NCBI GenBank assembly: GCA_017551765.1
Contig: JAFZKV010000061.1
Location: forward strand, 1-37,423
Length of the DNA stretch: 37,423 bases
From: Bacteroidales bacterium
Lineage (GTDB): Bacteria > Bacteroidota > Bacteroidia > Bacteroidales > P3
Direction: 5' to 3'
The notes under the pieces were generated by a model, which was not told the origin of the DNA, did not search any database, and worked only from the letters and a program-made list of their open reading frames with translations. A program made the position numbers and the translations under genes. Position 1 is the stretch's first letter. Each line of letters starts with the position of its first letter. Of the stretch, positions 8,576 to 30,047 are shown piece after piece.

Positions 8576-8670
8576 CTCCGACTTTTGTCCGACTCATGTC
8601 CGACTATAGTCCGACTGAAGTCCGACTTTGGTCGGAGAAAAGTCGGAGTTCAGTCGGACATCAGTCGGAC
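8576..8670. repeat. Palindromic 11-bp array B (GTCCGACT family)
   Basis: Five TCCGACT cores start at 8577, 8588, 8599, 8610 and 8621, exactly 11 bp apart. Four reverse-complement cores (AGTCGGA, first one GGTCGGA) start at 8630, 8641, 8652 and 8663. The dyad axis is at 8628.5 with a 2-base centre. The 3-4 base spacers between cores vary and mostly do not pair. The array lies between the HU terminator (8693-8722) and the gpsA promoter (8494-8501). Confidence 0.95.
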
Positions 8671-8692
8671 CTGTAACGCTGTTTGTGGGGAT

Positions 8693-8722
8693 AAAAAAAA
8701 GACGGAACCCGACGGGTCCGTC
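8693..8722 (-). terminator. Rho-independent terminator of the HU gene
   Basis: The minus strand stem GACGGACCC / GGGTTCCGTC (one bulged T, 3-base loop) at 8701-8722 is followed by eight T (8693-8700). It begins 26 bases after the HU stop. Confidence 0.85.
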
Positions 8723-8748
8723 CTTTTGTTCACGCGGTTAAGAAAACC

Positions 8749-9036
8749 TTATTTCTTCTTGGCGGTTTTCTTCTTGGCGAGCAGGTTGCTACCGGCTTTG
8801 AACTTGGCGACTTTCTTGGCGGGAACCTTTACGGGTTTGCCAGTCTGCGGGTTCTTGGCGGTGCGGGCTTTGCGCTCCACGACGCTGAAGGTGCCGAAGC
8901 CGATCAGGGTCACTTTCTCGCCTTTGTTCAGTTTCTCCTGGATGCTGCCGAAGCAAGCATTCATGGCGGCCTTAGCGGCTACTTTCGTCATACCGGTTTT
9001 TGCGGCAATGGCGTTAACAAGTTCAGTTTTGTTCAT
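8749..9036 (-). CDS. hup: HU family DNA-binding protein
   Basis: A 95-aa nucleoid protein that bends DNA as a dimer. The sequence MNKTELVNAIAAKTGMTK gives the two N-terminal helices. GEKVTLIGFGTFSVVERKAR is the conserved beta strand and signature, and RTAKNPQTGKPVKVPAKKVAKF is the DNA-binding arm with the Pro that inserts in the minor groove. The C-terminal tail (LLAKKKTAKKK) is an extra Lys-rich extension. It has its own promoter-like element (9087-9119) and a strong terminator, so it is a single-gene unit. Confidence 0.95.
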   Translation of the reverse strand: MNKTELVNAIAAKTGMTKVAAKAAMNACFGSIQEKLNKGEKVTLIGFGTFSVVERKARTAKNPQTGKPVKVPAKKVAKFKAGSNLLAKKKTAKKK

Positions 9037-9086
9037 GTTTGATGATGTTTAAAGGGTTATTAATTATGTACTTAAATTTTTCGATG

Positions 9087-9119
9087 CAAATGTAAGAATT
9101 TTTTTTGATGTGAACCAAA
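9087..9119 (-). promoter_or_regulatory. HU gene promoter (TTTG, about 20 bp, TACATTTG)
   Basis: On the minus strand TTTG (9116-9119) is followed after about 21 bases by TACATTTG (9087-9094) and GC, close to the Bacteroidota -33/-7 layout. Confidence 0.6.
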
Positions 9120-9162
9120 TTTTTTTTCAAAAATTTTCAAATTTTTTTCAAACATTTTCGTA

Positions 9163-10098
9163 CTATATTAATTCCCAATCACTTATATTATTGCCTCTAA
9201 GAAAATCCTCTACGTTATTTTTCTTTTTTCCAGCCATTTGAAGTTCTAAAATCTCAACAAATCCGTCAGTTGCAGCGATTTTTATCACTTTTTTGCCGTC
9301 ACAAACAAGGGTTTTTGGTGTGGTTTCGAGTGTTTTTAAGGGGCGCACGCGATAAATTTTGAAGGGCACCGTGTCTCCCTTGGGAGAACGTAGCCGTAGG
9401 GTGGCCGCAGGGTAGGGGGAGAGCCCTCTCACAAAATCGGCAACTTGTTGGCAACTGCGGTTGAAATCAATGAGGCAGTCCTCTTTGAATATCTTGGGTG
9501 CGGGGCATGGCTCACCTTCTTGGGGCTTGGGGATGAGGGTGCCGTCGGCCAGGCCGTCGAGGGTGTGCACAACGAGGTCGCGGCCCATTGTGGCCAAACG
9601 GTCGTGCAGGGTGCCGGCATCGTCGTTGTCGTCGATGGGGGTGGATTGTTGCAGCAGGATGGCACCCTCGTCGATATGGTGATTGAGGAGGAAGGTGGTA
9701 ATTCCGGTCTCGTGCTCGCCGTTGATGATGGCGTGGTTGATGGGGGCAGCGCCACGGTAACGTGGCAGCAATGAAGCGTGCAGGTTGAAGGTGCCGTGGG
9801 GCGGCATGTTCCACACCGCCTCGGGCAGCATGCGGAAGGCCACCACGACAAAGATGTCGGCGTGGTAAGCACGCAGGGTTTCAAGAAACGCCTCGTCGCG
9901 CAGTCGCTCGGGCTGTAGCAGTGGCAGGTTGTGCTCGAGGGCATACTGCTTTACGGGACTGTAAATCAGTTTCTGGCCACGACCCGCCTGCCGGTCGGGC
10001 ACAGTGACGACAGCCGCCACCTCGTGCCGAGGCGATTGCATGATGGCATCGAGGCTTTCGACGGCGAAGTCGGGGGTGCCGAAATAAACTACTCGCAT
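9163..10098 (-). CDS. fmt: Methionyl-tRNA formyltransferase
   Basis: A 311-aa enzyme that formylates Met-tRNAfMet with 10-formyl-tetrahydrofolate for translation initiation. The N-terminal formyltransferase domain starts MRVVYFGTPDFAV. It contains the catalytic Asn105 and His107 in FNLHASLLPRYRGAAPIN and Asp143 in NHHIDEGAILL. The C-terminal about 100 residues form the tRNA-binding OB-type domain. Length is normal. Its first 10 bases overlap the end of ribH, so the two are probably co-translated. After the stop there is only an AT-rich stretch and the HU promoter. Confidence 0.95.
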   Translation of the reverse strand: MRVVYFGTPDFAVESLDAIMQSPRHEVAAVVTVPDRQAGRGQKLIYSPVKQYALEHNLPLLQPERLRDEAFLETLRAYHADIFVVVAFRMLPEAVWNMPPHGTFNLHASLLPRYRGAAPINHAIINGEHETGITTFLLNHHIDEGAILLQQSTPIDDNDDAGTLHDRLATMGRDLVVHTLDGLADGTLIPKPQEGEPCPAPKIFKEDCLIDFNRSCQQVADFVRGLSPYPAATLRLRSPKGDTVPFKIYRVRPLKTLETTPKTLVCDGKKVIKIAATDGFVEILELQMAGKKKNNVEDFLRGNNISDWELI

Positions 10099-10577
10099 AA
10101 ACTCCGTTGATAAGCAATCATTTTGAGTGCTGTGATGGCGCCTTCAACGCCCTTGTTTCCGTGGCGTCCACCGGCACGGTCGAGGGCCTGCTGCATGGTG
10201 TCGCAGGTAAGGACGCTGAAGATTACGGGCCGTTCACGCTTGAGAGCCACGTTGGTGATGCCTTGCGACACGGCTTGGCAGATGAACTCGAAGTGGCGTG
10301 TCTCGCCCTGGATGACGCAGCCGATGCAGATAACGGCGTCAATGTTGGGGGTGCCAAGCATCATGTCGGCTGCCGACGTGAGTTCAAAGGTGCCGGGCAC
10401 GCGGCGCACCAGAAGGTTCTCTGCCTTTACGCCGTGTTCGCTCAGGGTGTCAACGGCCCCTTGCAGCAGGGCATCGGTCACCTCGGGGTTCCATTCGGCG
10501 GCAATAACGCCGATGCGGTATGGCGAGCCGTCGGGCACGGCTGTCGGGTCGTAGTCGGAGAGGTTGGTCTTTTTCAT
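10089..10577 (-). CDS. ribH: 6,7-dimethyl-8-ribityllumazine synthase
   Basis: A 162-aa enzyme of riboflavin biosynthesis. It condenses 5-amino-6-ribitylaminouracil with 3,4-dihydroxy-2-butanone 4-phosphate. Seen: IGVIAAEWNPEVTDALLQGA (substrate loop), VPGTFELTSAA, CVIQGETRHFEFI with the catalytic His95, and FSVLTCDTMQQALDRAGG near the C-terminus. No other rib genes are nearby. It lies 16 bases after the rpoN-M23 frame and overlaps fmt, so it appears to be in the same transcript. Confidence 0.95.
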   Translation of the reverse strand: MKKTNLSDYDPTAVPDGSPYRIGVIAAEWNPEVTDALLQGAVDTLSEHGVKAENLLVRRVPGTFELTSAADMMLGTPNIDAVICIGCVIQGETRHFEFICQAVSQGITNVALKRERPVIFSVLTCDTMQQALDRAGGRHGNKGVEGAITALKMIAYQRSLCE

Positions 10578-10593
10578 TTAATATACTATGGAG

Positions 10594-11472
10594 TTAAAAG
10601 TCTTTTGGGTTGATGTCGGTGGGTTGGTTCTTGGGGCGTTTCTTGCCTTCGCGTATGATGCTGCGGTCGGCCTTGTAGTCGAGCACCTCGCCACGACGCG
10701 GCTGGCGGATGCCGAAGTAGGTCTTGTCGAGGTGCAGGCGGCGTGTGCGGAGGGTGTGGTGGTCGAAATCGAGTATCCATTCGGGGTCGAAGGTCTGGTA
10801 GAGGAAACGGCACTCGAAGTGCAGGTGCGGGCCGGTGGAGTTGCCGGTATTGCCGCCGTGACCTATCACCTCGCCCACGCTGACTTGCTGGTTGGGCTTG
10901 ACGTTGATGCGCGACAGGTGGCCGTAGAGGGTCTCCAAGCCGTTGGGGTGGCGCAGGACGATACAGTTGCCGTAGCCGCCCATGCGTCCTGCGATGCGGA
11001 CAGTGCCGCTAAAGGCGGCATGGATGGGGTCGCCTGTGCGGAGGGCGATGTCAACCCCGTGGTGCCCTCGGTTCCACCGCCAGCCATAGGGGCTGGTCTT
11101 GCGTCCCTGTATGGGGAAGCAGAACTCGGAGGTGTCGCGTATCAGGAGTATGTTGATTTCGTCGGGCAGCATGTCCACTTTGGTGCGCCCCATAGGATTG
11201 ACACGGTGCTGAGGAAAGGCATCATACCAGATAGGCACAATATATGCCTCTTTGGGTACGGCTGCCACCGGCGCGGCAGGTTCTTTGGCGTGCTTGACTT
11301 CTTTGGTTTTGGTCTCTTTGCGCGGCTCCTCTTTCTTCTCCACTTTGGGTGCTGCCTTTTCGGCGGTTTTAATGCGTGCGGCTATGATGGAGTCGTAGTA
11401 GGAGGTTTGTGAATGGCCGCATAAAGGAAGCAACAGCAGCAGGGCCAGGATGACGCGGCGCAGCCGTGCCAC
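10594..11472 (-). other. M23 peptidase module with embedded signal peptide and possible internal GTG start
   Basis: From GTG at 11472 the same frame would give a 292-aa protein beginning (M)ARLRRVILALLLLLPLCGHSQ. This is a typical signal peptide with an Arg-rich n-region and a short hydrophobic core. The codons for VARLRR would then serve both as the C-terminus of sigma-54 and as the n-region of the signal peptide. The domain would cut peptidoglycan cross-bridges in the periplasm; both zinc-ligand motifs are intact. No strong ribosome-binding site is seen before the GTG, which is common in Bacteroidota. Confidence 0.6.
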
Positions 11473-12831
11473 GGGGATACCCAACAGTTCGCGGTATTTT
11501 GCCACTGTGCGGCGTGCCAGCGGGATACCCTGTTCGTTGAACAGGCGCGCTATGGCGTCGTCGGAGAGAGGAGATTGCTTGTTTTCACCGGCAATGATGT
11601 CGGCCAGCCGTTGTTTGATGGTCTCAACTGACACCTCTTCTCCATCGTCGGTGGCCATGCCTTTGGAAAAGCACTCCTTGAGGGCGATGGTGCCGAAATC
11701 GGTTTGGAGGTATTTACTGTTGGCCATACGCGACACGGTGCTGATGTCCAATCCTGTGGCCTCGGCCACCTCGCGCTGCCGCAGAGGCACCAGCTGGTCG
11801 GGGTCGCCGGTGAGCAGGAAACGGCGTTGGTGCTTGATGATGTAGCGCATCACACGCACGATGGTGTCGTGCCTTTGTTGCAGCAAGTCGATGAAACTCT
11901 GGGCATCGGTCTGCTTGGTGCGCAGGAACTGCACGGTGGCCTTGTCGCCTTTCTGCTGCTCCATCTGGTGCAGCATGTCGGTGTAGTAGCTGTTCAAACT
12001 CAGGCGCGGCAGGTGGGTGTCGTTGAGGTAGAACTGCAACTGCCCGTCGTGCTGGGTAAGAATGATGTCGGGGATGATGGGGGTGGCGCCGCTGTTGTCG
12101 GCATCCGACGAGCCTGCGGGCTTTGGATTCAGTCGCTTGATGGTGGCAGCGGCCTCATCCAACTCTTCCTCGCTTATGCCCAGGGCGTCGCAGATGCGCT
12201 CATAACGGTGGTTGGCAAAGTCGTCGAAGTGGTCGCGCACGATGGCCAGCGGCAAAGATACATCCTCCTCTTTGCGCTCAAGTTGCAGCAGCAGACACTC
12301 TTGAAGGCTGCGGGCACCGATACCGGCGGGGTCGAGGCTCTGCACGATATGCAGCACTTCCTCCACCTCCTCGGGCGAGGCTTCTATCCCTTGACGGAAG
12401 GCCAGGTCGTTAGTGATGAGTGCCAAGTCGCGACTAAGGTATCCGGCATCGTCCAAGGTGCCGATGAGTTCGGTGGCTATCAGTTGCTGCCGTTCGGTGA
12501 GGGGACGCATGGCGAGTTGCTGCATCAGGCGCTCGGTCGACGACAGGCTGTCGCTCACCACAAACTCGCGCCTCACCGCGTTGGGGTCGCTCTCCAGCTG
12601 CTCGCGGTAGTCGTAGCCCTCTTCCTCGTCGGTGTCCCAATCCGAGCGGTCATTGTCCACTGTCGGCAGGGGCTGCATGTCTTGTTCTTCGGCTTCAAGC
12701 AGGGGGTTCTTCTCCACCTCCTCCTTGATGGCCTGCTCCAAGTCGGTGACAGGCAACTGCAACAGGCGCATCAGCTGTATCTGCTGAGGCGAGAACTTCT
12801 GCTGCAGTTGCTGTCGTTGGACTTGTTTCAC
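10594..12831 (-). CDS. rpoN: RNA polymerase sigma-54 factor fused in frame to an M23 peptidase
   Basis: One 745-codon frame carries two normally separate proteins. Residues 1-459 are a full sigma-54: the Gln-rich region I (LQQKFSPQQIQLMRLLQLP), a core-binding part, the DNA-binding domain and a perfect RpoN box ARRTVAKYRE at 439-448. Then, where sigma-54 should end, the frame continues through RLRR and a hydrophobic run (about 460-472) that looks like a signal peptide. A Lys/Glu-rich linker follows, then an M23 (LytM) zinc peptidase domain with HxxxD (His590, Asp594) and HxH (His669, His671). No stop separates the parts. Either this is a real membrane-tethered fusion, or the peptidase starts inside at GTG 11472, or a stop was lost or misread. 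The GTG start at 12831 directly follows the S46 peptidase stop. Confidence 0.85.
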   Translation of the reverse strand: MKQVQRQQLQQKFSPQQIQLMRLLQLPVTDLEQAIKEEVEKNPLLEAEEQDMQPLPTVDNDRSDWDTDEEEGYDYREQLESDPNAVRREFVVSDSLSSTERLMQQLAMRPLTERQQLIATELIGTLDDAGYLSRDLALITNDLAFRQGIEASPEEVEEVLHIVQSLDPAGIGARSLQECLLLQLERKEEDVSLPLAIVRDHFDDFANHRYERICDALGISEEELDEAAATIKRLNPKPAGSSDADNSGATPIIPDIILTQHDGQLQFYLNDTHLPRLSLNSYYTDMLHQMEQQKGDKATVQFLRTKQTDAQSFIDLLQQRHDTIVRVMRYIIKHQRRFLLTGDPDQLVPLRQREVAEATGLDISTVSRMANSKYLQTDFGTIALKECFSKGMATDDGEEVSVETIKQRLADIIAGENKQSPLSDDAIARLFNEQGIPLARRTVAKYRELLGIPVARLRRVILALLLLLPLCGHSQTSYYDSIIAARIKTAEKAAPKVEKKEEPRKETKTKEVKHAKEPAAPVAAVPKEAYIVPIWYDAFPQHRVNPMGRTKVDMLPDEINILLIRDTSEFCFPIQGRKTSPYGWRWNRGHHGVDIALRTGDPIHAAFSGTVRIAGRMGGYGNCIVLRHPNGLETLYGHLSRINVKPNQQVSVGEVIGHGGNTGNSTGPHLHFECRFLYQTFDPEWILDFDHHTLRTRRLHLDKTYFGIRQPRRGEVLDYKADRSIIREGKKRPKNQPTDINPKDF

Positions 12832-14982
12832 TTATCGTACGATATCAATCTCTTCTATCAGGTTCTTGGCACCAGCGTAAACGTCGATGACCCACAGCAT
12901 ATAGCGGCTGTCGAGGCAGATGCAGCGCTGCAGGTTCTCCTCGAAGTCGATGTCGCCGCTCATGGCATCGCTGTTGCCGTCGAAGGCCAGGCCGATGAGG
13001 ACACCGTTGGCGTTGATGACGGGCGAGCCGCTGTTGCCGCCGGTGATGTCGTTGTTGGTGATGAAGCAGGTGGGCATCTCACCGCGCCGGTTGGCATAAG
13101 CGCCGAAGTCCTTCTTGGCATAGAGTTCCTTGAGGCGGGCGGGCACGATGAACTCGCTGTTCTCGGGGTCTTCCTTCTCCAGGACGCCCTTCATGGTGGT
13201 GTAGTACTTGTAGCTTACACCGTCCTTGGGGTCGTAGCTCATCACGTTGCCGTAGGTGAGGCGGATGGTCGAGTTGGCGTCGGGAGCCACCAGGCGGCGA
13301 CCTTCGTTGACCTGCAGGATGCCGTCCGTGAAGTCGCGTATGCCGCGCTTGAGGTTATCTTTCGACTGCTGGGAAACGGCTTCGCGCAATTGCTTGGCGA
13401 TGTCCTGAACTTCCTTGGCGGCCAACAGCATCGGGTCCTTCTCCAGCTGCTTGGCGTTGGGCTTGAGCATATATTTGCCCAGGTTCTCCTGGTTGGCGAA
13501 GATGCTGGCCTTGTACAGTTCGTCCACATACTTCGTCCAATCGCCTTTGTATTTCTTGTTGGCCTTCTTCAGGAAGTCGGGGCACAGGTCGGGGTCCATG
13601 TGGGCATAGACATACTCGAACATGGCGGCAGCCACGCGCTTCTCCACCTTCTCGTCATAGTCCTTGAAGAAGCTGTTGAACATCTTGTCCTGTGTGCTGA
13701 GGTCCATTTCGGGATTGCTCTCCATCATCTTGTTAATGCGGATGGCAAGGCTGAGGACCTCGGAGCCGCCAATCAGGCCTTCGTTAATGTACAGCTGTGC
13801 TTCGCGCACGCTGCGGCGGGCGGCATAGCCGTCCTTGATGAGGCCGAGGGCGTTGCTGTACTTGGGGCTGCGCTGGAAGCGGGCCCAATCGCTGTATTCC
13901 TTCTCCACGTCGCGCTTCACCTGCATGGTGTTCAGGGCCTGGAGCGCCTTGTTCTGCTCGTTGGCCATCTTCCAATAGTTGGAGCAGGAGGCATATTTCG
14001 AGTCGTACTTGATGCGCACGGCCTGGTCGGCGCCCATCTCCTCGCGCAGGATGTTGATGCGCACGGTGCGCAGCTCGTAAACCAGCTTGTTGTTGATGTC
14101 CATCGTCTCCTCGAGGCCGTAGGTGGTGATGAAGCGGTCGGTGGTACCGGGGAAACCCATCACCATAGCGAAGTCGCCGTCGTTGATTTCGCCTGCGCTG
14201 ACGGGCAGGTGGTGCTTAGGCACGAGGGGCACGTTGTCCTTGCTGTAGTCGGCGGGGCTGCCGTCGGGGGCGGTGTAGATGCGGAACATCGAGAAGTCGC
14301 ATGTGTGGCGCGGCCACGACCAATTGTCGGTGTCGCCGCCAAACTTGCCCATCGAGCTCGGCGGAGCGCCCACCAGACGCACGTCGCGGTAGATGATGTG
14401 CACAAAGAGGAAGAATTGGTTACCGCTGAACATAGGCTTCACCTGGGCGGCATATTGGGTGCCCTCCACAGCCTCTTTCTCAATGGCGGCGCACACCTTC
14501 TTGATGGCAGCCTCACGGTCGCCCTCGCTCATGTCGTCGCTGAGGTTCTCCATGACGCGGGCGGTCACATCCTCCATGCGCACCAGGATCGACGCCGTCA
14601 GGCCCGGGTTGGGCAGCTCCTGCTCCTTGGTGTAGGCCCAGAAGCCGTCGCGCAGATAGTCGTGCTCCACCGTCGAGTGCTCCTGCAGCTTGCCGAAGCC
14701 GCAGTGGTGGTTGGTGCTCACCAGGCCTTGGTTAGAGATGATTTCGCCCGTGCAGAAGTGCCAGAAGGGGCGGCCGGCGTTGCCGAGGCCCACGATGGCG
14801 TCCTTCAGGCAGCTCTGGTTCACGCTGTAGATGTCCTCCGGTGTCAGCTGGAAGCCGGCACGCTGCATGTCGTCGTAGTTCTTCCCGATCAGCGACAGCA
14901 GCCACATGCCCTCGTCGGCGCGGGCAACGCCCGGCAGCATCGTCATCAGGGCCAATGCAATAACTAAAGTACGAATTTTCAT
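12832..14982 (-). CDS. S46 family dipeptidyl-peptidase (DPP7-like)
   Basis: A 716-aa secreted serine exopeptidase releasing N-terminal dipeptides in the periplasm, part of peptide and amino-acid use in asaccharolytic or proteolytic Bacteroidales. A signal peptide (1-22, cleavage near ARA) is followed by DEGMWLL, typical of mature S46 enzymes. The catalytic His is in TNHHCGFG (about His93) and the nucleophile is Ser651 in GGNSGSP. The residue 18 positions after the Ser is Gly669. In the family an Arg here marks acidic-specific DPP11 and Gly marks DPP7, so preference for hydrophobic P1 residues is inferred. The promoter-like TATATTTG is at 15031-15038. It is the first gene of the run S46-rpoN/M23-ribH-fmt. 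Confidence 0.9.
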   Translation of the reverse strand: MKIRTLVIALALMTMLPGVARADEGMWLLSLIGKNYDDMQRAGFQLTPEDIYSVNQSCLKDAIVGLGNAGRPFWHFCTGEIISNQGLVSTNHHCGFGKLQEHSTVEHDYLRDGFWAYTKEQELPNPGLTASILVRMEDVTARVMENLSDDMSEGDREAAIKKVCAAIEKEAVEGTQYAAQVKPMFSGNQFFLFVHIIYRDVRLVGAPPSSMGKFGGDTDNWSWPRHTCDFSMFRIYTAPDGSPADYSKDNVPLVPKHHLPVSAGEINDGDFAMVMGFPGTTDRFITTYGLEETMDINNKLVYELRTVRINILREEMGADQAVRIKYDSKYASCSNYWKMANEQNKALQALNTMQVKRDVEKEYSDWARFQRSPKYSNALGLIKDGYAARRSVREAQLYINEGLIGGSEVLSLAIRINKMMESNPEMDLSTQDKMFNSFFKDYDEKVEKRVAAAMFEYVYAHMDPDLCPDFLKKANKKYKGDWTKYVDELYKASIFANQENLGKYMLKPNAKQLEKDPMLLAAKEVQDIAKQLREAVSQQSKDNLKRGIRDFTDGILQVNEGRRLVAPDANSTIRLTYGNVMSYDPKDGVSYKYYTTMKGVLEKEDPENSEFIVPARLKELYAKKDFGAYANRRGEMPTCFITNNDITGGNSGSPVINANGVLIGLAFDGNSDAMSGDIDFEENLQRCICLDSRYMLWVIDVYAGAKNLIEEIDIVR

Positions 14983-15030
14983 TGTGTTATTTGAGTTTAT
15001 TATTAATATTAATACAATTAATTAGCGGTG

Positions 15031-15038
15031 CAAATATA
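15031..15038 (-). promoter_or_regulatory. -7 box (TATATTTG) for the S46 peptidase operon
   Basis: The minus strand reads TATATTTGC, a full TAnnTTTG match, 48 bases before the ATG at 14982. It lies in the short gap after the upstream type IX cargo gene, so the S46 run probably starts a new transcript. No clear -33 box. Confidence 0.5.
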
Positions 15039-15067
15039 CGAAATATTTTTGAAATGGAGAGATTTTT

Positions 15068-17260: not shown

Positions 17261-17284
17261 TCTCCGGAGGGTTGTTCAACGGAA

Positions 17285-17314
17285 TAACGTCCAACTTGCC
17301 TTATTATTGTGCAC
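17285..17314. repeat. Shared leader element, copy 1
   Basis: Upstream of the GTG at 17260 the plus strand has AACG, then 10 bases, then CCTTATTATTGTGCA. The paralog at 18311-21043 has AACG, 9 bases, then CCTTTTTATTGTGCA at the same distance from its ATG. It may be a conserved leader or promoter element carried along in a duplication. Confidence 0.5.
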
Positions 17315-17321
17315 CAGCACT

Positions 17322-18032: not shown

Positions 18033-18086
18033 GGTTATTGTCTCCTTATCTGTTAGGTTATTATTAACATCGCTATAACGCTCACT

Positions 18087-18177
18087 GTTGTCCATTCGTT
18101 GTACACTTGTTATACGCTTGTTGTTCGCTCTTTGAACGGACAACAAGCGGACAACAAACGGACAACAAACGCACAAC
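18087..18177. repeat. Palindromic 11-bp array C (GTTGTCCG family)
   Basis: Four 11-bp units run from 18087 to 18130 (GTTGTCCATTC, GTTGTACACTT, GTTATACGCTT, GTTGTTCGCTC). After a TTT centre, four reverse-complement-type units run from 18134 to 18177 (GAACGGACAAC, AAGCGGACAAC, AAACGGACAAC, AAACGCACAAC). The arms are exactly symmetric about 18132 and pair at 34 of 44 positions. The left arm is more diverged. It lies downstream of the -7 box at 18230, so in the leader of the gene starting at 18032. Confidence 0.92.
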
Positions 18178-18229
18178 AGTGGTAGTTATCAGGTACTTAT
18201 ACCAGACCTTGCCTGAGGTTATCCAAAGG

Positions 18230-18237
18230 CAAAGATA
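18230..18237 (-). promoter_or_regulatory. -7 box (TATCTTTG) upstream of array C
   Basis: The minus strand reads TATCTTTGCC, a TAnnTTTG match. Initiation near 18223 would place array C inside the transcribed leader of the hypothetical gene. No clear -33 box. Confidence 0.45.
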
Positions 18238-18270
18238 AGCATTTTTTTGAAATAGAGAGAATTATTTTTT

Positions 18271-18310: not shown

Positions 18311-21043
18311 TCACCGTAGGAGGGTGACGGTGCCGGCGCCGTTGCGGCGGAAATCATAGGCGTCCTTCGCGAACCAATAGTAGACGTAGGCCCCCTGGGG
18401 CATGGGGGCACCGTCGCGTGTGCCGTCCCATAGGGCGGTGGGGTCGTCGGTGTGGTAAACCAGCAGCCCTTGCCGGTTGTAGATATAGAGCTCAAACTCG
18501 ACAATCTCGAACGATGCCGTGCAGCCGAAGCGGTTGTTGGTTTCCAGGCCTGGGGTGAAAACGTTTGGGAACCACACGGACCGTATGCACACCGGCACGG
18601 TGAAGGTGGTGTCCACGCAACACTGATACCTGTTGCACGAGGTGAGTGTCACCACCACGCTGTCGGGCAGCGGATAGTGAAATTGTCGGCGGGGTTTGTC
18701 ACCTGTGAGGGTGACGCCGTCGGAAAAAGTCCAGGTGGAGGTGGCGTGCCCCTCGGAGCAGTCGGTGAAATAGACAACCGGATGGTCGAAGTCGACAAAA
18801 GGCCGTTCGACCTCGAAACACATCACGGGCGGATTATCGATGCCCACCATTAGCTCGGCGACGGTGTGCCCCTCGGCGTCAATCAGCCGGTAGATTGTAG
18901 TGGTTCGCGGGCTGACGTTGATTGAGGCCTGTCCTTGTTGCGCCTCAAGGTCGGGGTCGGGTGGGTCGGCAGCCCAAAGGAAATAATAGGTTCCCGTGGC
19001 TGTGAGGGTCAGCGTGTCTCCAGGACAGATGCCGTCGGCGCTGGCCGAAATGCCTGCCACGGCGTAGGACAGATGCAGCGTCACCGTAGAGTCGCATCCG
19101 TTGGCCGCCGTGAAGGTGAACGTGTAATCGCCTGCCTCCATCAGCGTCGTGTCGGCGAAGAACAGCGTGTCGCCCTGAATGATGACGGCCTCTGTATCGA
19201 TGGCGGTGTGGGGCAGGATGGTCAGCAGCAGGTGGTAATAGTGGAGCGTATCGCCGACGAGTTCGTTGCGCCACAGTTCCAGGGTCCCGGCGTTGGCCGT
19301 TGTCGCCGCGTCGACCGAGAAGCCATAATCCTCATACGGCAGCCCTTGGCATACAGTGTCGCGGTACACCGTAGTGTCGGTGGTGATAGGTCGGGGAGTA
19401 CATTCTATATGTAGCCTTAGTATAGAATCACAGCCATTTGCGGCTGTTAGATAGAAATTATAGGTGCCCGCAGTCGTGAAGGCGGTGTCGGCATAAAACA
19501 GAGTGTCGCCCTCATAGATGTGTGCTGTTGTGTCGCCATAGGAAATAGGCAGCACGGTGAGCGTGAGGTGAATGTGGTGCGTGGAGTCCCCGTTGTAATC
19601 CAGCCGCCATAATCCCAGATTGCCCGCTGATGAGGTCTGTTGTGGACTGAGGTTGAATCCGTTTGCCGAATACTCTTGTCCCATGCACACAGTGTCGTAA
19701 ATCTGAACGGTGTCAATTATGAAGGGAATTATTGCGGTGGAATCGACAGACATACCGGTGTTGTATGCGTAGCTCTCCACTTGTCCTATACCATAGGCGG
19801 TCGCTATAAAAGGACCGGCAGAGTTGCTTAAAAAATGTACGTTGTTGCTCACTGAGACCCGAGCATAACTATAGGCGGTATCTAATGTGGAAAATTGGTA
19901 TGCTATGTTGTTGCCGTCAAGGGTCATGGAAGAGACATATTGGGTACGTAGTACGATGTTGACATAATGAGTATGAATACGAGAGGATTCGTAAGTGGTG
20001 AGCCCAACACGTTGTAAACCTCTGTCCAAGGGAGTGATCATCAGTTCATTGGCATCCCCAGGTTCTCCATAATAATCCGATGCTTGTTGATACATTCCGA
20101 CACAAACAGGCTTTGTTGTCCTAATACGTTGAGCGCTATTGGCCGACATGACATATTGGTAAGTCTGTCCAGAATTGAGAAGAATGGGTGAAGAGAAACC
20201 GGAAATGTAGACGTTGCAGTTGTCTTCAGACGAGGTGATTCTGACATAGTCGCCAACAGTGCGCTGTGCTGTTGTAATGACGGCAAAATCGGTACCCCAA
20301 TTTTTGACGGGTATGCTTTGTTCAAAGATATGGTCGCCACTTGGGGAGCCTGCGGGTATGCTTGTAAATTTGTTCCCTTGAAACAATGCGAATGGTCTAT
20401 TTCCTCGGACTTTGCAACCAGAAAATGTGTTTGGTGTAGGTGTTTCGAGTAGGTATGATTGTCCTTGTTGTAGTGTAAGTGTTAGTGTGCTGCCTGGAGA
20501 TAAACTGCTGCCTACCAAGGAAGAATTCACCACCATTTGAATGACGGTATTGTCTTCGGTGGCCACCATCATTATTTCAGCGGCTGATGTCGACGGGCGG
20601 TTATTGTCTCCAGGAAAATCTTGCGCCATATAAAGAGTGTCGAGTGCACGTGTGGGCAGTACTTGGGTGATGCCGCAGCTGGCCAATTGGTGGGAGACAG
20701 CGAAGAGAAAAATGCTGGCGGTTGACGTTATATGGAAGCCGTTGTTGGCGGGAGAGTTGAATGAGGTTGGAATAGCAGAGCTGTTGGGAAGGATGATTTC
20801 TACACGGCTACCGGCATTTAGGTGAGCCGAAAGGTGTACATTGGCCCCGATGTTGTCTACAAAGATGTCACAAGCGGTGTCTCCAATGGCGATGACTTTC
20901 CTGTATTCAGGTGTTTGATCGCCTCCGTTGATGAGAAACCCAACCCAGAAGTCGCGACCCATTGAGGTGGAAGTTCCTGATTGTGCATGGATAACCCCTC
21001 CTGCCAGGAGTAATAATAGGGTTATAAAACACAATTGTTTCAT
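18311..21043 (-). CDS. IgGFc-binding-like surface protein with type IX (type B) sorting domain, paralog 2
   Basis: A 910-aa secreted protein with ATG at 21043. The signal peptide ends near IHA-Q. STSMGRDFWVGFLIN opens the IgGFc-binding-like domain (about residues 20-430). Then come two 110-130 residue repeats, each closing with AANGCDS(I/T)(L/V)xLHxE/S, a short Ig-like segment (ADGICPGDTLTLTATG), a PKD-like part and a type IX sorting domain (VWFPNVFTPG, YNRQG, WDGTRDGAPMPQGAYVYYW, ending GAGTVTLLR). It is about 180 residues longer than its paralog at 15068-17260, due to an extra NGCDS repeat and the Ig-like segment. The N-terminal two fifths of the gene (about 19700-21043) are visibly more AT-rich than the rest, which suggests a mosaic origin. 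The ligand is unknown. Confidence 0.85.
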   Translation of the reverse strand: MKQLCFITLLLLLAGGVIHAQSGTSTSMGRDFWVGFLINGGDQTPEYRKVIAIGDTACDIFVDNIGANVHLSAHLNAGSRVEIILPNSSAIPTSFNSPANNGFHITSTASIFLFAVSHQLASCGITQVLPTRALDTLYMAQDFPGDNNRPSTSAAEIMMVATEDNTVIQMVVNSSLVGSSLSPGSTLTLTLQQGQSYLLETPTPNTFSGCKVRGNRPFALFQGNKFTSIPAGSPSGDHIFEQSIPVKNWGTDFAVITTAQRTVGDYVRITSSEDNCNVYISGFSSPILLNSGQTYQYVMSANSAQRIRTTKPVCVGMYQQASDYYGEPGDANELMITPLDRGLQRVGLTTYESSRIHTHYVNIVLRTQYVSSMTLDGNNIAYQFSTLDTAYSYARVSVSNNVHFLSNSAGPFIATAYGIGQVESYAYNTGMSVDSTAIIPFIIDTVQIYDTVCMGQEYSANGFNLSPQQTSSAGNLGLWRLDYNGDSTHHIHLTLTVLPISYGDTTAHIYEGDTLFYADTAFTTAGTYNFYLTAANGCDSILRLHIECTPRPITTDTTVYRDTVCQGLPYEDYGFSVDAATTANAGTLELWRNELVGDTLHYYHLLLTILPHTAIDTEAVIIQGDTLFFADTTLMEAGDYTFTFTAANGCDSTVTLHLSYAVAGISASADGICPGDTLTLTATGTYYFLWAADPPDPDLEAQQGQASINVSPRTTTIYRLIDAEGHTVAELMVGIDNPPVMCFEVERPFVDFDHPVVYFTDCSEGHATSTWTFSDGVTLTGDKPRRQFHYPLPDSVVVTLTSCNRYQCCVDTTFTVPVCIRSVWFPNVFTPGLETNNRFGCTASFEIVEFELYIYNRQGLLVYHTDDPTALWDGTRDGAPMPQGAYVYYWFAKDAYDFRRNGAGTVTLLR
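18318..18350. repeat. 33-base exact repeat, copy 2 (3' end of type IX cargo gene)
   Basis: Identical to 15075-15107. Together with the shared leader element this marks the two cargo genes as a duplicated or gene-converted pair. Confidence 0.85.
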
Positions 21044-21061
21044 GGGTGAAAAGGTAATATT

Positions 21062-21093
21062 CTCTATAACGGGCTAATACCCTTTTTATTGTG
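21062..21093. repeat. Shared leader element, copy 2
   Basis: This is the counterpart of 17285-17314: AACG followed after 9 bases by CCTTTTTATTGTGCA, just upstream of the ATG at 21043. Minus-strand transcription would enter the gene from here. No TAnnTTTG box is seen at this end. Confidence 0.5.
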
Positions 21094-21218
21094 CATGATT
21101 GTAAAAATGCCCGCAAGCTTTTTTTTGTTGCACAAAACTTGGTGTCGACTGGTGGTGTGGATGGGTGTAGATGAATGGTGTTTGGAACCCTGAGGAATGG
21201 TAAAAAGTTTTCAACCGA

Positions 21219-21267
21219 GGTTGGTGGTCGGTGGTTGGTGGTTGGTGGCTGCTGGTTGGTGGCTGGA
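21219..21267. repeat. G-rich 7-bp tandem array F upstream of mraZ
   Basis: Seven tandem heptamers in exact register: GGTTGGT, GGTCGGT, GGTTGGT, GGTTGGT, GGCTGCT, GGTTGGT, GGCTGGA. No reverse-complement arm is present. All GG pairs are on the plus strand, so a two-tier G-quadruplex is possible. It lies in the 402-base divergent gap (21044-21445) between the cargo gene and mraZ. The rest of that gap is AT-rich, with the GTAATTTTAC element at 21413-21422 and no gene. Confidence 0.88.
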
Positions 21268-21412
21268 GATGGGTTGTGTTTCTGTTTGTTACAAAAAAAG
21301 TTTGTATTGGATGAAACTTTTTTTCAAATGTTGCGTTAAGGGTTATGAACAACAAAAAATGTTAAAAAAAGGAAATAAAAGGAATTTTTAGGCAGAAATT
21401 GGAATTTTCTTC

Positions 21413-21422
21413 GTAATTTTAC
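21413..21422 (+). promoter_or_regulatory. Possible mraZ promoter element (GTAATTTTAC)
   Basis: GTAATTTTAC lies 23 bases before the mraZ ATG and contains TAATTTTA, a near match to TAnnTTTG. The same ten bases occur upstream of ftsZ (34835-34844). No -33 TTG at the right spacing. Confidence 0.35.
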
Positions 21423-21445
21423 AACCTGAAAAATAGTAGGTAAAA

Positions 21446-21907
21446 ATGGCGTTAATACTTGGAAAAGAGTACTGTAAGGTCGATTCTAACGGCCGTTTCA
21501 AGTTCCCGATTGCCCTCAAGAGGCAGTTGGAAACCGAGGACGGGCGTTTTGTGATTCGACAGAGTATCTATGCCGAGTGTTTGGAGCTGTGGACTTATGC
21601 GAGTTTCAGGGAGGAGGCGGAGAAACTTCAGGAGAAGCTTAATCCTTACCGCCGCGAGGACCGCGACCTGCTGCGCAAGCTGACAGAGGGCAACATCATC
21701 GAGCTTGACTCGAATGACCGTCTGCTGGTGCCTGCCGAGCAGAAGGCCCTGGTGGCGGGTGCCAAAGAGGTTGTGCTGCAATCGACCGGCAAGTTCATCG
21801 AGCTCTGGGACCGCAAGACCTACGACAAGATGAACACTTCCGGCGGCGACTTTGCCCTAAGGGCGGAGCAGCTGCTGGGTCAGTCGAAGGCAGAGGATGA
21901 CCAATGA
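21446..21907 (+). CDS. mraZ: Transcriptional regulator MraZ
   Basis: A 153-aa protein with two SpoVT/AbrB-like halves. The two DxxxR DNA-binding motifs are VDSNGRFKFP and LDSNDRLLVP. MraZ forms a ring-shaped oligomer, binds G-rich direct repeats in front of its own operon and usually represses the dcw cluster. It is the first gene of the cluster. Its end overlaps the rsmH start by 11 bases. The G-rich heptamer array F upstream is where a MraZ operator would be expected, although the TGGGN box known in other bacteria is not clearly repeated there. Confidence 0.95.
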   Translation: MALILGKEYCKVDSNGRFKFPIALKRQLETEDGRFVIRQSIYAECLELWTYASFREEAEKLQEKLNPYRREDRDLLRKLTEGNIIELDSNDRLLVPAEQKALVAGAKEVVLQSTGKFIELWDRKTYDKMNTSGGDFALRAEQLLGQSKAEDDQ

Positions 21908-22841: not shown

Positions 22842-22844
22842 AAG

Positions 22845-23273: not shown

Positions 23274-23294
23274 GGGTTATAGGTAAGAGAAGAG

Positions 23295-25550: not shown

Positions 25551-25559
25551 AAAGACAAC

Positions 25560-27011
25560 ATGAAACTGAAAGATATATTAAAAGGAATAGAGGTTCAGGT
25601 GACAGGGCCGGCGGAGCTGGAGGTCAAGGACATGCAGTTCGACTCTCGGCAGGTCACCGAAGGTACCCTCTTTGTGGCTCAACGTGGCACCAAGGTGGAT
25701 GGTCACCAATTCATTTCCGGTGCCATAGAAAAAGGTGCGGTGGCCATAGTGTGTGAGGAATTGCCGGAGAAGCTTGCCGAAGGAGTTTCCTACGTCAAGG
25801 TGCCCGACAGTAGTGAGGCTCTTGGGTTGATGGCGGCCAATTACTATGGCCACCCCTCCGAGCAGTTGAAGCTTATCGGTATTACCGGCACCAATGGAAA
25901 AACCACCACCGTTACCCTGTTGCACCGCATGTTCCGCATGCTGGGTCACCATGTGGGCCTTGTGTCGACCATTGTCAACAAGATAGACGAGGAGGAGTTG
26001 CCCACGGGCCATACCACACCCGACGCACTCGAGCTCAACCAACTGTTGCGTCGCATGGTGGATGCCGGATGTGAGTATTGCTTCATGGAGGTGAGCAGCC
26101 ACGCCGTGGTGCAGCACCGCATTGCCGGTGTGCGCTTTGCGGGGGCCATCTTCAGCAATATCACGCATGACCATCTGGATTTCCACAAGACGATGGCCAA
26201 CTATATCGCTGCCAAGAAGGGCTTCTTCGACGGCTTGCCTGAAGGTGCATGGGCGTTGGTGAACATTGACGACAAGAACGGCCGCGTCATGGTGCAGAAC
26301 ACCCGTGCCGAGGTACACACCTATGCTTTGCAGCATGCAGCCGACTTCCATTGCCGCTTAGTGGAGGACACTTTTGAAGGGATGCACCTCGACATCAACG
26401 GGCAGGCGCTCTGGTGCCGGCTGGTGGGGCGCTTCAATGCCTACAATCTCACTGCCATCTATGCTGCTGCAGTGCTTTGCGGTGCTGATCAGCAGGAGGT
26501 GCTGCGCTTGTTGAGCCTGCTGGAGGCGGCACCTGGCAGGTTCCAATATGTCAGTGGCCGTGGTATCACTGCCATTGTCGACTATGCCCACACTCCCGAT
26601 GCGTTGCAGAATGTGATTGCCACCATCGACGATATTCGTCGTCCCACACAGCTGCTTATCACGGTGGTGGGTTGTGGTGGCGACCGCGACCGCACCAAGC
26701 GCCCCGAGATGGCCAAGATAGCTGCCGAGGGCAGCGACAAGGTGGTGCTCACCAGCGACAATCCGCGCACCGAGAATCCCGACACCATCCTCGACGAGAT
26801 GGAGGCAGGACTCACAGCACAGCAACTGAGCCATGTGGTGCGCATCACCGACCGCCGCCAGGCCATCCGCACCGCCTGCATGATGGCCAAGGAGGGCGAC
26901 ATTGTGCTGGTGGCTGGCAAAGGCCACGAGAAGTACCAGGAGGTAAACGGTGTGCGCAACCACTTCGACGATGTGGAAGAACTTGAAAAAGAATTGAACG
27001 TTAAGAATTAA
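25560..27011 (+). CDS. murE: UDP-MurNAc-L-Ala-D-Glu--2,6-diaminopimelate ligase
   Basis: A 483-aa cytoplasmic Mur ligase adding the third stem-peptide residue. The N-terminal UDP-binding domain has DSRQVTEGTLFVA. The ATP P-loop is GTNGKTT (110-116). The central domain has MEVSSHAV and NITHDHLDFH, and the C-terminal domain has VDYAHTPDAL. DNPR (400-403) is the signature for meso-diaminopimelate, so Gram-negative-type peptidoglycan is expected. All catalytic motifs are present, unlike in the murD remnant further on. 5 bases separate it from mraY. Confidence 0.96.
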   Translation: MKLKDILKGIEVQVTGPAELEVKDMQFDSRQVTEGTLFVAQRGTKVDGHQFISGAIEKGAVAIVCEELPEKLAEGVSYVKVPDSSEALGLMAANYYGHPSEQLKLIGITGTNGKTTTVTLLHRMFRMLGHHVGLVSTIVNKIDEEELPTGHTTPDALELNQLLRRMVDAGCEYCFMEVSSHAVVQHRIAGVRFAGAIFSNITHDHLDFHKTMANYIAAKKGFFDGLPEGAWALVNIDDKNGRVMVQNTRAEVHTYALQHAADFHCRLVEDTFEGMHLDINGQALWCRLVGRFNAYNLTAIYAAAVLCGADQQEVLRLLSLLEAAPGRFQYVSGRGITAIVDYAHTPDALQNVIATIDDIRRPTQLLITVVGCGGDRDRTKRPEMAKIAAEGSDKVVLTSDNPRTENPDTILDEMEAGLTAQQLSHVVRITDRRQAIRTACMMAKEGDIVLVAGKGHEKYQEVNGVRNHFDDVEELEKELNVKN

Positions 27012-27016
27012 GAGAT

Positions 27017-28195
27017 ATGCTATATTATTTATTCGATTGGTTGGACAAGGCGATGGATTTCCCCGGAGCGGGTGTGTTTCAATACATCTCCTTCCGTTCG
27101 GCGGCCAGCATGGTAACTTCGTTGCTTATCATGTTGCTGCTGGGCAAGCCCTTCATCCGCTGGATGCAGAACAAGCTGGGTATGATGGACGAGGTGCGCA
27201 CCGAGTTGGGACTTGAGGGTGCCGAGCGCAAGGCCAAGACCCCTACAATGGGAGGCGTGCTGATACTCGCCGCCATCATCATTCCCACGTTGCTCTTTGC
27301 CAAGCTGGACAATATCTATGTGCAGATTATGCTGGGCACTACGTTGTGGATGGGCTTGGTGGGCTTCCTTGACGACTATTTGAAAAAGACACGCGGCAAG
27401 GCAGGTTTGCCCGGCAAGTATAAGGTGTTTGGCCAGGTGCTGCTGGGACTTGCTGTGGGCTTGCTCATCACATTCCACCCCGACATCACCGAGCCGATGA
27501 AGACCACCATCCCCTTTGTGAAAAACAATGAGTTCAACTATACATGGCTCGTCTCGTGGATGGGTCCGTGGGCCACCAAGTATGCGTGGGTGCTTTTCGT
27601 GCTGGTGGTGATATTCGTAGTGACGGCTGTCAGCAACGCCTCCAACCTCACCGATGGTATCGACGGCATCGCTACCGGAGTGGCGGCTGTCAACGGTGGT
27701 GCGCTGGCACTGCTGGCATGGGTGAGCGGCAACGTGATTATGGCTGGTTACCTGAACATTATGTATCTGCCCAATATCGGCGAGTTGGCCATCTTCAGTA
27801 CCGCCTTCGTGGGGGCTACGCTGGGCTTCCTGTGGTTCAACACGCACCCCGCCGAGATATTCATGGGCGACACCGGTTCGCTGGCCATCGGCGGCATCAT
27901 CGCCGTCTTTGCCATCCTCATCCGCAAGGAACTGCTGCTGCCGTTGCTGTGCGGCATCTATCTGATTGAGGATGTGTCGGTCATCATCCAGACAACGGGA
28001 TGCAAGCGCTACCGTCGTAAACATAAATTGCCTACGGGTGTGCCGGTGCCTATCGAGAAACGACCCTTCTTAATGTCGCCGCTGCATCATCACTATCAGA
28101 AGAAAGGCGTGGCCGAGGAGAAGGTGGTCATGCGCTTTGTCATCATTGCCATCTTGCTGGCAATATTCACCCTCTCGACATTGAAACTGAGATAA
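27017..28195 (+). CDS. mraY: Phospho-N-acetylmuramoyl-pentapeptide-transferase
   Basis: A 392-aa polytopic inner-membrane enzyme (about ten helices) transferring phospho-MurNAc-pentapeptide to undecaprenyl phosphate to make lipid I. Seen: KAKTPTMGGVLIL, the DD motif in FLDDYLKKTRGKAGLPGKYK, NASNLTDGIDGIATG, the catalytic-site MGDTGSLAIGG, and the cytoplasmic His cluster PLHHHYQKKG. It appears complete. A 37-base gap without any gene remnant follows before the MurD-derived frame. Confidence 0.96.
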   Translation: MLYYLFDWLDKAMDFPGAGVFQYISFRSAASMVTSLLIMLLLGKPFIRWMQNKLGMMDEVRTELGLEGAERKAKTPTMGGVLILAAIIIPTLLFAKLDNIYVQIMLGTTLWMGLVGFLDDYLKKTRGKAGLPGKYKVFGQVLLGLAVGLLITFHPDITEPMKTTIPFVKNNEFNYTWLVSWMGPWATKYAWVLFVLVVIFVVTAVSNASNLTDGIDGIATGVAAVNGGALALLAWVSGNVIMAGYLNIMYLPNIGELAIFSTAFVGATLGFLWFNTHPAEIFMGDTGSLAIGGIIAVFAILIRKELLLPLLCGIYLIEDVSVIIQTTGCKRYRRKHKLPTGVPVPIEKRPFLMSPLHHHYQKKGVAEEKVVMRFVIIAILLAIFTLSTLKLR

Positions 28196-28232
28196 CAACA
28201 ATACAAACTATAAACAGACACAGAATAACAAT

Positions 28233-28775
28233 ATGACTATTGAAACTTTGGCTTTGCAGGGTCGTGACAGGGTTCACACCGGATTGGCAGGACTTGACAC
28301 ACAACGGCTGAAAAGCATGCGCAATGTGGCTTTGCGCTCTTGCTTCAACCGTCTTGAAGATACGCGCTACCGTCTTGAGTTTGTGGCTCGTGTACGTGGA
28401 CGTGAGTATGTCAACGATGCTGCTTCGCGCACTATCAATGCTACGTGGTACACCCTTGAGAAGTTGCAGGGAGGTCTCATCTGGATAGCCGACGCCAACG
28501 ACCAAACGGCCGACTACAGTCGTCTGGTGCCGCCGGCGCTGCGCAAGGTGCGCATGTTGTTGGTGGTTGGCGATGCCGAGGACAGGATGCACCACACCTT
28601 CAAAGGCATTATCCCCACCATCGTGCGATGCTCCACGATGGCCGAGGCCTTGCAGCGCGCCTACCGCTACGAGTCGGAGGATGAGGTGAAGGTGCTCTAC
28701 TCGCCGGCTTGTTATAACGGCCACTCCACGATAACGCAGGGCGAGGTGTTTCGCCATGAGGTAAACGAATTATGA
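28233..28775 (+). CDS. MurD-derived C-terminal domain protein, catalytic domains missing
   Basis: A 180-aa frame occupies the murD position but matches only the C-terminal ligase domain of MurD, which is normally about 445 aa. The match runs from the domain linker (MTIETLALQGR) through YRLEFVARVRGREYVND to YSPACYNG. The UDP-binding and ATP-binding domains, including the P-loop, are absent. Key C-terminal residues are also changed: the usual NDSKATN is replaced by NDAASRTIN, losing the conserved Lys, and the block after SPAC is not the usual SFD..NF. The frame is nevertheless open, with codon use like its neighbours and an ATGA overlap with ftsW. It cannot act as a ligase. It is either a decaying pseudogene or a repurposed domain, and a functional murD should be elsewhere in the genome. 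Confidence 0.75.
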   Translation: MTIETLALQGRDRVHTGLAGLDTQRLKSMRNVALRSCFNRLEDTRYRLEFVARVRGREYVNDAASRTINATWYTLEKLQGGLIWIADANDQTADYSRLVPPALRKVRMLLVVGDAEDRMHHTFKGIIPTIVRCSTMAEALQRAYRYESEDEVKVLYSPACYNGHSTITQGEVFRHEVNEL

Positions 28776-29971
28776 AAACAGGCAAGATATTCAGGGGAGA
28801 CAAGGTAATCTGGGTGGTGTTCCTGCTGCTCAGCATCATCTCGCTTGTGGAGGTCTACAGTTCCATCGGCCTCTATGCCTATTCGCTCCCGGGTACCCAT
28901 CCCACCGGCCTCTTCCTCAAGCATTTTGCCATTGTGGTGGCCACCTATGTCGCCATCATCTTCATCTCGCGTGTCAACTACCGCTTCTTCTCGCGCTTCG
29001 CCATGTTAGGCTATTGGATTGCGTTGGTGTTGCTTGTGGTGGCTTTGGCATTCGGCCGATGGATCAGAATTCCCGTCATAGGACAGTTCCAGCCTTCGGA
29101 GATTGCCAAGATAGTGTTGATTGTCTTCGTGGCCCGCATGTTGGCATTGAAGAAGGAGCATGTTGGCGAAATCGGTACCTTCTTGCAACTGATGATTTAC
29201 ACGGTGCTTGTGGTTGTGTTGGTGTTTCCGGCCAACTTCTCCACGGCGGCGTTGATATTCCTGGCGTGTTATATCATGATGCTTCTTGGTGGTGTCAACC
29301 GAAAATATTGGTGGCGCCTGTTGCTGATAGGCTTGGTGGCGGTGATTGCCTTCCTGGCCGTCAGCTATTACCGCTATGAGCGTTCATTGTCCACAGGTCA
29401 GGTTCAAGAGCAGGTGTTTGAGCGTCAAGACACTTGGGGACACCGAGTTTATTCTTGGATTAACCCGCAACCCGACGAACTGACACAGGAGAATATGGCG
29501 CGTATGGCCATCGCCCGTGGAGGCGTGCTGGGTGTCGGCATCGGCAACACGGTGCATGCACGATTGATGACACAGGCTCACAACGACTTCATCTATGCAG
29601 TCATCATAGAGGAAATGGGTATCGTCGGCGGCATCGTGGTCTTTTTGCTCTATAGCATCCTTTATTTCCGTTGCATACGCCTGGCGTGGCGCTGCAAGGG
29701 GCGCTTCGGAGCCCTCACGGTGGCAGGTATGGGAACGGTCATCTACCTGCAGGCATTGGTGAATATGTGTGTGGCTGTAGGAGTGCTGCCCGTGACGGGA
29801 CAGACGTTGCCGTTCATCAGCTATGGCGGTACGGCCTACCTCTTTATGGGGTGTGGTTTGGGTATCATTCAGTCGGTGGCTGCCGACGTCTATGGAAAAG
29901 AATCCGAGGAGGTTACTATTGATAAAGAAAAGGTGAATAAAGATAATAATGTGTCCGACTCAACACCGTGA
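28772..29971 (+). CDS. ftsW: Septal peptidoglycan glycosyltransferase FtsW
   Basis: A 399-aa SEDS-family polymerase with about ten membrane helices that polymerises lipid II at the septum together with FtsI. Seen: RWIRIPVIGQFQPSEIAKIV, the catalytic Asp272 in QAHNDFIYAVIIEEMG, and TGQTLPFISYGGTAYL. The start overlaps the MurD-derived frame (ATGA). The last residues (VSDSTP) and the stop lie inside array D, so the repeat array supplies the C-terminus. Otherwise normal length. Confidence 0.95.
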   Translation: MKTGKIFRGDKVIWVVFLLLSIISLVEVYSSIGLYAYSLPGTHPTGLFLKHFAIVVATYVAIIFISRVNYRFFSRFAMLGYWIALVLLVVALAFGRWIRIPVIGQFQPSEIAKIVLIVFVARMLALKKEHVGEIGTFLQLMIYTVLVVVLVFPANFSTAALIFLACYIMMLLGGVNRKYWWRLLLIGLVAVIAFLAVSYYRYERSLSTGQVQEQVFERQDTWGHRVYSWINPQPDELTQENMARMAIARGGVLGVGIGNTVHARLMTQAHNDFIYAVIIEEMGIVGGIVVFLLYSILYFRCIRLAWRCKGRFGALTVAGMGTVIYLQALVNMCVAVGVLPVTGQTLPFISYGGTAYLFMGCGLGIIQSVAADVYGKESEEVTIDKEKVNKDNNVSDSTP

Positions 29972-30047
29972 TTTGTCCGACTCATCACCGTCTTTAGTCG
30001 GACATCAGTCGGACAAAAGTCGGAGATGGGTCGGAGGTGAGTCGGAG
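29953..30047. repeat. Palindromic 11-bp array D (GTCCGACT family) overlapping the ftsW stop
   Basis: Forward cores start at 29954 and 29976 (TCCGACT), with degenerate cores (ACCGTGA, ACCGTCT) in register at 29965 and 29987. Reverse cores (AGTCGGA/GGTCGGA) start at 29996, 30007, 30018, 30029 and 30040, all 11 bp apart. The axis is at 29994.5 with a 2-base centre, the same geometry as array B. The ftsW stop (TGA, 29969-29971) is within the degenerate unit at 29965. murG begins at 30086. Confidence 0.93.

Follow-up and report, generated by a model that had tools for sequence, protein, structure and literature searches.

Intergenic palindromic arrays of 11-bp units in uncultured Bacteroidales, possibly genome-specific families of dispersed DNA elements

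In one group of uncultured rumen bacteria, intergenic regions hold many mirror-image repeats whose letters differ by genome while their 11-base spacing stays constant. We see about an even chance that these arrays are non-autonomous palindromic DNA elements that are composed of 11-bp units and dispersed in genome-specific families, resembling REPINs or MITEs and lacking a RAYT link. The starting point was a stretch of 37,423 nt (the window), contig C59 of a genome labelled G000, a 1.92-Mb draft that is 89.7% complete. The nearest named relatives of this genome are uncultured Bacteroidales, mostly from rumen or other ruminant gut samples, and the MurG proteins of the species compared are about 66 to 88% alike to that of the window. 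The four arrays of the window, and the genes beside two of them, are the following.

Array A, 3473..3538, no strand assigned: arms 3473-3501/3510-3538, 97% complementary.
gpsA-like gene, 7472..8434, minus strand: adjoins array B; presumed gpsA-like from its N-terminal sequence.
Array B, 8576..8670, no strand assigned: arms 8577-8622/8624-8669, 78% complementary.
HU-like DNA-binding protein gene, 8749..9036, minus strand: on the other side of array B; we take it to be HU-like on the basis of its translation.
Array C, 18075..18189, no strand assigned: arms 18075-18130/18134-18189, 77% complementary.
ftsW-like gene, 28772..29971, plus strand: upstream of array D; named from gene order.
Array D, 29953..30047, no strand assigned: arms 29954-29993/29996-30035, 75% complementary.
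murG-like gene, 30086..31192, plus strand: downstream of array D; putative name; the basis of the tree and of the ortholog survey.

On re-examination, each of the four arrays of the preliminary description was found at its gap, although array C is longer than the 18087-18177 first given for it. Array A is a hairpin of GTTCTTTGGTC units with the loop GGAAAAAAGC and is one copy of a dispersed family. Array B, flanked by the HU-like and gpsA-like genes, has five TCCGACT units and four GTCGGA units spaced 11 bp apart, array C has ACGGACAACAA units in arms of 56 nt, and array D has AGTCGGA-type units at the ftsW-murG junction, where it overlaps the ftsW stop codon at 29971. The strict 11-bp period also held, being the only lag with islands at all four gaps in a lag scan of periods 6-40, in which the left arm of array D has a period of 22; a joint-test scan over lags 6-30 gave four islands at lag 11 alone. 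Searching jointly for imperfect hairpins and lag-11 identity yielded 4 period-11 hairpins and 4 period-11 tracts in the window, compared with 0 and 0 in 200 order-1 Markov shuffles of it. Each DNA strand is predicted to fold far better than its own shuffles (z-scores of -10.3, -7.9, -5.5 and -5.8 for A-D). Other periods are present as well. Period-7 tandem tracts, some mirrored like the 11-bp arrays, lie at window 21211-21260, L121:1728-1805, L128:1675-1759 and L137:126-212. Period 7 is frequent in the genus genomes and commoner than period 11 in G000, G012 and G002, and inverted arrays of periods 7 and 8 occur in the window's genome.

The suggestion that the arrays form a genome-wide class was borne out by hundreds of unit pairs in the genome, instead of the few further arrays that would have counted against it. 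The array B unit pair, AGTCGGANNNNAGTCGGA, has 294 matches in the 1.92-Mb draft at up to one mismatch, and the array A pair has 118 at up to three; the reversed control gave 0 in both cases. Among the matches listed are at least 34 inverted A pairs, every one at a 26-nt offset, independent of the loop. The exact B pair has 141 matches in G000, 3-12 matches in each of 4 of its 12 congeners, and a single match in each of 5 of 294 other genomes sampled evenly across the order; the A pair, at up to two mismatches, is absent from all 12 congeners. In the case of G012, a family of TAGTATTACGG units (family-1) occupies 44 places (27 exact, 17 with one change) and was found at 0 places in the 12 other genus genomes searched. 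From tens of near-identical cores per genome, together with absence or rarity in congeners, we infer mobility. Several other unit families exist in G000 besides A and B, and unlike families coexist within one genome. Units had been described as varying by locus; they do differ, but by family and genome, with one unit recurring at tens of sites per genome.

Array density can be compared across genomes. In G000, 30 period-11 tracts were found in 392 kb (20 stretches plus the window), a density that is not that of a random draw, some stretches having been picked from contigs with known B matches. Per 100 kb, the values are 9.6 in G012, 7.7 in G000, 6.5 in G002, 6.0 in G009, 4.0 in G004, 0.6 in G011 and 0.0 in G005, which places five of the seven sampled genus genomes at 4-10 and two at 0-0.6. 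The outgroup had 0 period-11 tracts in 37 loci (672 kb), and a stricter scan found tracts in 16 of 44 clade loci (27 in all) and in 0 of the 37 outgroup loci. A unit consensus common to the families was considered and set aside: its 4.47 bits exceed the 3.54±0.14 of shuffled units, but the random-strand control gave 4.98±0.34, so the signal is mostly base skew and is given no weight.

In the two families where it was measured, A and family-1, the element is about 110-125 bp long with arms of about five units. Arms of this length are not general, since the median paired arm is 33 nt and reaches at least 40 nt in 28 of 75 arrays; an inverted arm of 18 nt is missing in 21 of 67. The arrays are dispersed, noncoding and within 50-1000 bp, as MITEs are. 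The 29 family-1 copies that were read are near-perfect palindromes, none within a called gene (15 in divergent, 12 in co-directional and 2 in convergent gaps); near-perfect chromosomal palindromes of about 100 bp can be seen in G012 at L195, L196 and L211. Three copies have lost whole units in one arm (L192, L201, L205) and were left out of the arm-pairing counts; in the other 26, pairing is 0.974 in register versus 0.76 when shifted by one unit. Arms thus match within a locus, as was first proposed and as templated copying would give. Ten pairs are variable, with 225 of their 260 cells complementary (permuted mean 203.8, maximum 220). Both sides change in three of the ten and one side in seven, and the both-side changes may reflect a few inherited subfamilies.

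Conservation declines outward. Family-1 has, counting 11-bp bins outward from the centre, information values of 1.98, 2.0, 1.92, 1.87 and 1.61, dropping to 0.72 and 0.43 in the two bins that follow. The 22 A copies have about 1.9 and 1.5 in their inner bins, 0.5-1.0 over three further bins and 0.2 farther out, although these copies were found by a pattern requiring core and loop, so that inner conservation and loop sameness are partly selection. Element ends fade rather than stop sharply, with pooled mirror complementarity going from 0.85 to 0.29 by the seventh 11-bp bin, and no target-site duplication was seen by eye in the 29 family-1 copies, whose ends fade. B cores are asymmetric: of the 25 that were read, 24 have one or two units on the left, and the window's copy has five. 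On the short-arm side, 17 of the 25 B copies have the palindrome TCGTGCACGA and 8 lack it, which places one core in different surroundings. This palindrome often sits inside a longer one (L102-L109, L113-L115, L118-L120, L126, L130, L133). By eye, L152:5600-5724 of G012 combines units from three families in a single chimeric array, which suggests recombination or template switching.

Genes were called with our own hexamer script; longest-ORF calling had labelled many arrays as coding. From 118 period-11 tracts, 105 could be classed by gap, 3 coding tracts and 10 at edges being left out. They fall into 50 co-directional, 41 divergent and 14 convergent gaps, where spacer length alone predicts 55.4, 37.4 and 12.2 (p=0.56). 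The co-directional flanking genes remarked on for A-D are therefore real for these four but do not characterize the class. Within co-directional gaps, 39 of 50 arrays are closer to the 3' end of the gene upstream, and in G000 arrays occupy 26 of the 54 gaps that measure 120 bp or more. Such placement looks like tolerance and not like a role in transcription. A recurrent mobile neighbour was also considered and rejected: of 205 neighbour proteins, the largest cluster holds 10, window 18311-20962 included, and is non-transposase by eye.

The same arm order seen at the four window arrays reflects a true polarity. A usable hairpin was available for 75 of the 118 tracts, which come from six sets, and the 5' arm is pyrimidine-rich in 73 of them (mean 0.647), while 84 other hairpins in the same sequences have the opposite polarity (mean 0.413, with 60 under and 17 over one half). 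Counted by genome-specific family, polarity is common to 30 of 31, which lends something to an alternative that we hold possible but unlikely: selected binding-site arrays for sequence-specific proteins (of the kind acting in the nucleoid, in partition or as response regulators), in which each helical turn would carry one site and specificity would drift between species. Unit structure points the same way, B units having 7 conserved and 4 variable bases and outer A units having phased conserved positions among others that vary. Direct repeats at 11 bp are known from the Pho boxes of OmpR/PhoB regulators and the ParR iterons of plasmid parC; these use one unit sequence in regulons or a centromere, in contrast to the dispersed, mirrored families seen here. 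However, each of the unlike families that coexist in a genome would need its own protein, and placement follows spacer length.

Comparison of orthologous gaps can reveal how sites and units behave over time. At the ftsW-murG junction, lag-11 tracts are present in 7 of 44 species (the window, L021, L023, L062, L034, L035 and L050) at a threshold of at least 19 of 28 positions, which was set after the sequences had been seen (the next values being 18 and 17). Presence tracks the MurG tree with 3 changes, and the window, L062, L021 and L023 form a starred clade (98/89). Unit likeness, measured as the best 22-nt match against a phase-permuted null (n=40), is high within sister pairs (window-L062 19/22, L021-L023 17/22; 0 of 40 nulls reach each), and the window units resembling L062 are the outer right ones of array D. 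The four comparisons across the two pairs gave 13-15 of 22, within the null; window-L035 and L062-L050 gave 16 (1 and 2 of 40 nulls), and the remaining pairs are weaker. Because presence tracks the tree and units are related within, not between, sister pairs, sites would be inherited while units drift or are replaced. Judged from these matches, the junction array seems to be inherited in the clade, with units that appear unrelated between the two sister pairs. At its outer right end (window 30030-30055), array D has GTCGGAGATGAATGGGT in common with the L050 junction, the tracts otherwise differing. Other species have other periods at this junction, namely a period-8 tandem tract at L045:9906-10009 and period 9 upstream of murG in L056.

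Two further gaps were compared, the array C comparison having failed because the adjoining gene is a member of a paralogue family. The gap upstream of gpsA holds tracts in 7 of 18 genomes with a gpsA match, and in 4 of 10 where the HU-like neighbour is recognised. Here the close relatives L028 and L033 share 20/22 (0/40 nulls) and most other pairs are unlike; by eye, the units in L034 and L031 resemble other arrays of their own genomes. The divergent gap upstream of mraZ holds tracts in 15 of 43 clade loci, and some units look alike (L027, L030 and L050; L052 and L063). With about half of long gaps filled, coincident mraZ-gap arrays are expected, and given the 26 of 54 filled in G000, the mraZ and gpsA arrays may represent independent insertion at favoured gaps. 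In many of the species compared, the mraZ-like upstream gap (window 20962-21446; same gap in L021-L063) has, to the right of its array site, AAAAGTT(T/A)TCAACA, presumably DnaA-box-like. A distinctly improbable account of inherited sites is that a copying process measuring one helical turn rewrites arrays genome-wide, so that a genome-specific source would alter the letters in concert, whereas the 11-bp period, the palindrome and the pyrimidine-rich 5' arm would stay. If this were true, it would define a repeat class by geometry instead of sequence.

The obvious candidate for a mover is the RAYT/TnpA-Y1 transposase, which would make the arrays REPIN-like elements comparable to the atypical Bacteroidetes structures of subclass 2.6. 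Hairpins, intergenic location, tens of copies and genome specificity all agree with this, and Y1_Tnp genes are present in 16 of 21 genomes searched. However, none was found in G000, G006, G008 or G009, of which G000 and G009 are array-rich (draft genomes may miss the gene). Arrays occur in 14 of 24 genomes with Y1 versus 9 of 19 without (p=0.55), and the tree shows no association either. The 22 Y1 loci read represent 19 distinct ones, three having been seen twice; a period-11 tract lies within 1 kb of the gene at 1 of the 19 and at about 1.0-1.4 kb at 4 more, which we judged to be near the general density. With no association in genome counts, loci or tree, RAYT was rejected as the driver; it is not the likely mover, and we hold mobilization by such an enzyme to be decidedly unlikely. 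Loss of SbcCD was considered as a permissive condition. In 10 of the 13 genus genomes (G000-G012), G000 included, no SbcD match exceeds the family cut-off, and arrays are found in 17 of 24 genomes lacking SbcD versus 6 of 19 that have it (Fisher p=0.015). This candidate was also rejected, as the tree-based test was not significant and long paired arms exist alongside SbcD: both L052 (56-nt arms, 98% paired) and L063 (62-nt arms, 90% paired) have the gene.

Under the preferred reading of genome-specific mobile palindromes, copies would spread between intergenic sites through a trans-acting activity on extruded or single-stranded hairpins and persist where tolerated. At inherited sites, units may drift in concert or be replaced. 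Arm-to-arm templated repair, known as quasi-palindrome correction, fits the arm matching and would restore complementarity. The constant 11 bp, about one helical turn, could present repeated contacts on one duplex face to a putative multimeric protein. Counted against this reading are that no enzyme was found, that no target-site duplication was seen, that the ends fade and that B copies are asymmetric, as well as the arrays without an inverted arm of 18 nt, the possible independent insertions at mraZ and gpsA and the small share (3 of 10) of variable family-1 pairs in which both sides change.

No title or abstract listed in searches of the open-licence PMC literature describes 11-bp palindromic arrays in Bacteroidales. 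REPINs are REP doublets that form hairpins and are tied to RAYT genes (PMC3116915). Like the arrays, they are extragenic, high in copy number, genome-specific and non-autonomous, with inverted doublets as hairpins; an 11-bp internal unit is not mentioned for them in the part of that source available (PMC3116915), and the arrays lack the RAYT link. High-copy extragenic inverted doublets were indeed found here, while a RAYT (Y1) gene was not found in the drafts of G000 and G009 and, where Y1 genes exist, the repeat seldom flanks them. A GT[AG]G tetranucleotide at the hairpin foot is a feature of REPs, and in Bacteroidetes the TnpA-Y1 genes of subclass 2.6 have atypical flanking secondary structures with copies elsewhere in the genome (PMC6006769, available in part). 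Compared by description, these share with the arrays their phylum and non-canonical structures with further genome copies, but are defined by a flanking transposase gene (PMC6006769), which the arrays rarely have. BrickBuilt, a MITE of Porphyromonas gingivalis, is likewise dispersed, belongs to Bacteroidales and combines a tandem repeat with terminal inverted repeats; these resemble those of IS elements (PMC4596501, available in part), whereas here the repeat unit itself builds the palindrome. As far as the available parts of these sources go, REPINs, subclass 2.6 structures and BrickBuilt are the nearest known relatives, and a palindrome of 11-bp units is not described there.

It is very doubtful that the arrays are purely mutational, arising in spacers by local slippage and quasi-palindrome correction with neither mobility nor function. 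Whole-unit loss in one arm, the existence of period-7 and period-8 arrays and placement as space predicts are all compatible with this, and single arrays could have such an origin. For A, B and family-1 it is contradicted: local slippage does not put one core at 44 unrelated places, nor does it agree with at least 34 A pairs at one offset among the matches listed. Known classes were also compared. CRISPR repeats are about 23-50 bp long with unique spacers, and the contiguous, mirrored, 11-bp units support the early statement that the arrays are not CRISPRs. Selection for RNA pairing would favour G-U, and arm mismatches on the transcribed strand of co-directional arrays comprise 38 G-U, 49 A-C and 131 others (22 G-U and 37 A-C in an earlier, smaller count). 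With no G-U excess and no gene-orientation preference (p=0.56), the arrays are not terminators, as had been stated, nor mRNA hairpins, and the RNA hairpin once put forward is not supported. Structured RNA in the wider sense (bidirectional terminators, attenuators or mRNA-stabilising hairpins) could draw on the strong hairpins predicted with DNA parameters and on 11 bp being about one A-form RNA turn, but is highly improbable given the mismatch counts, the 41 of 105 arrays in divergent gaps, the several gpsA-gap arrays that by eye follow a terminator-like hairpin and precede a promoter-like TTTGCA, and a window with no Rfam match at the gathering threshold.

Near-perfect palindromes of about 100 bp are usually unstable in laboratory E. 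coli. In G012, dozens of sites hold near-perfect palindromes of this size. Sequence is what usually identifies a bacterial extragenic palindrome; in these arrays, period, symmetry and strand polarity persist while the letters change between species. The arrays thus offer a natural experiment on the spread of palindromes, the upkeep of matching between their arms and the cause of a unit length close to one helical turn.
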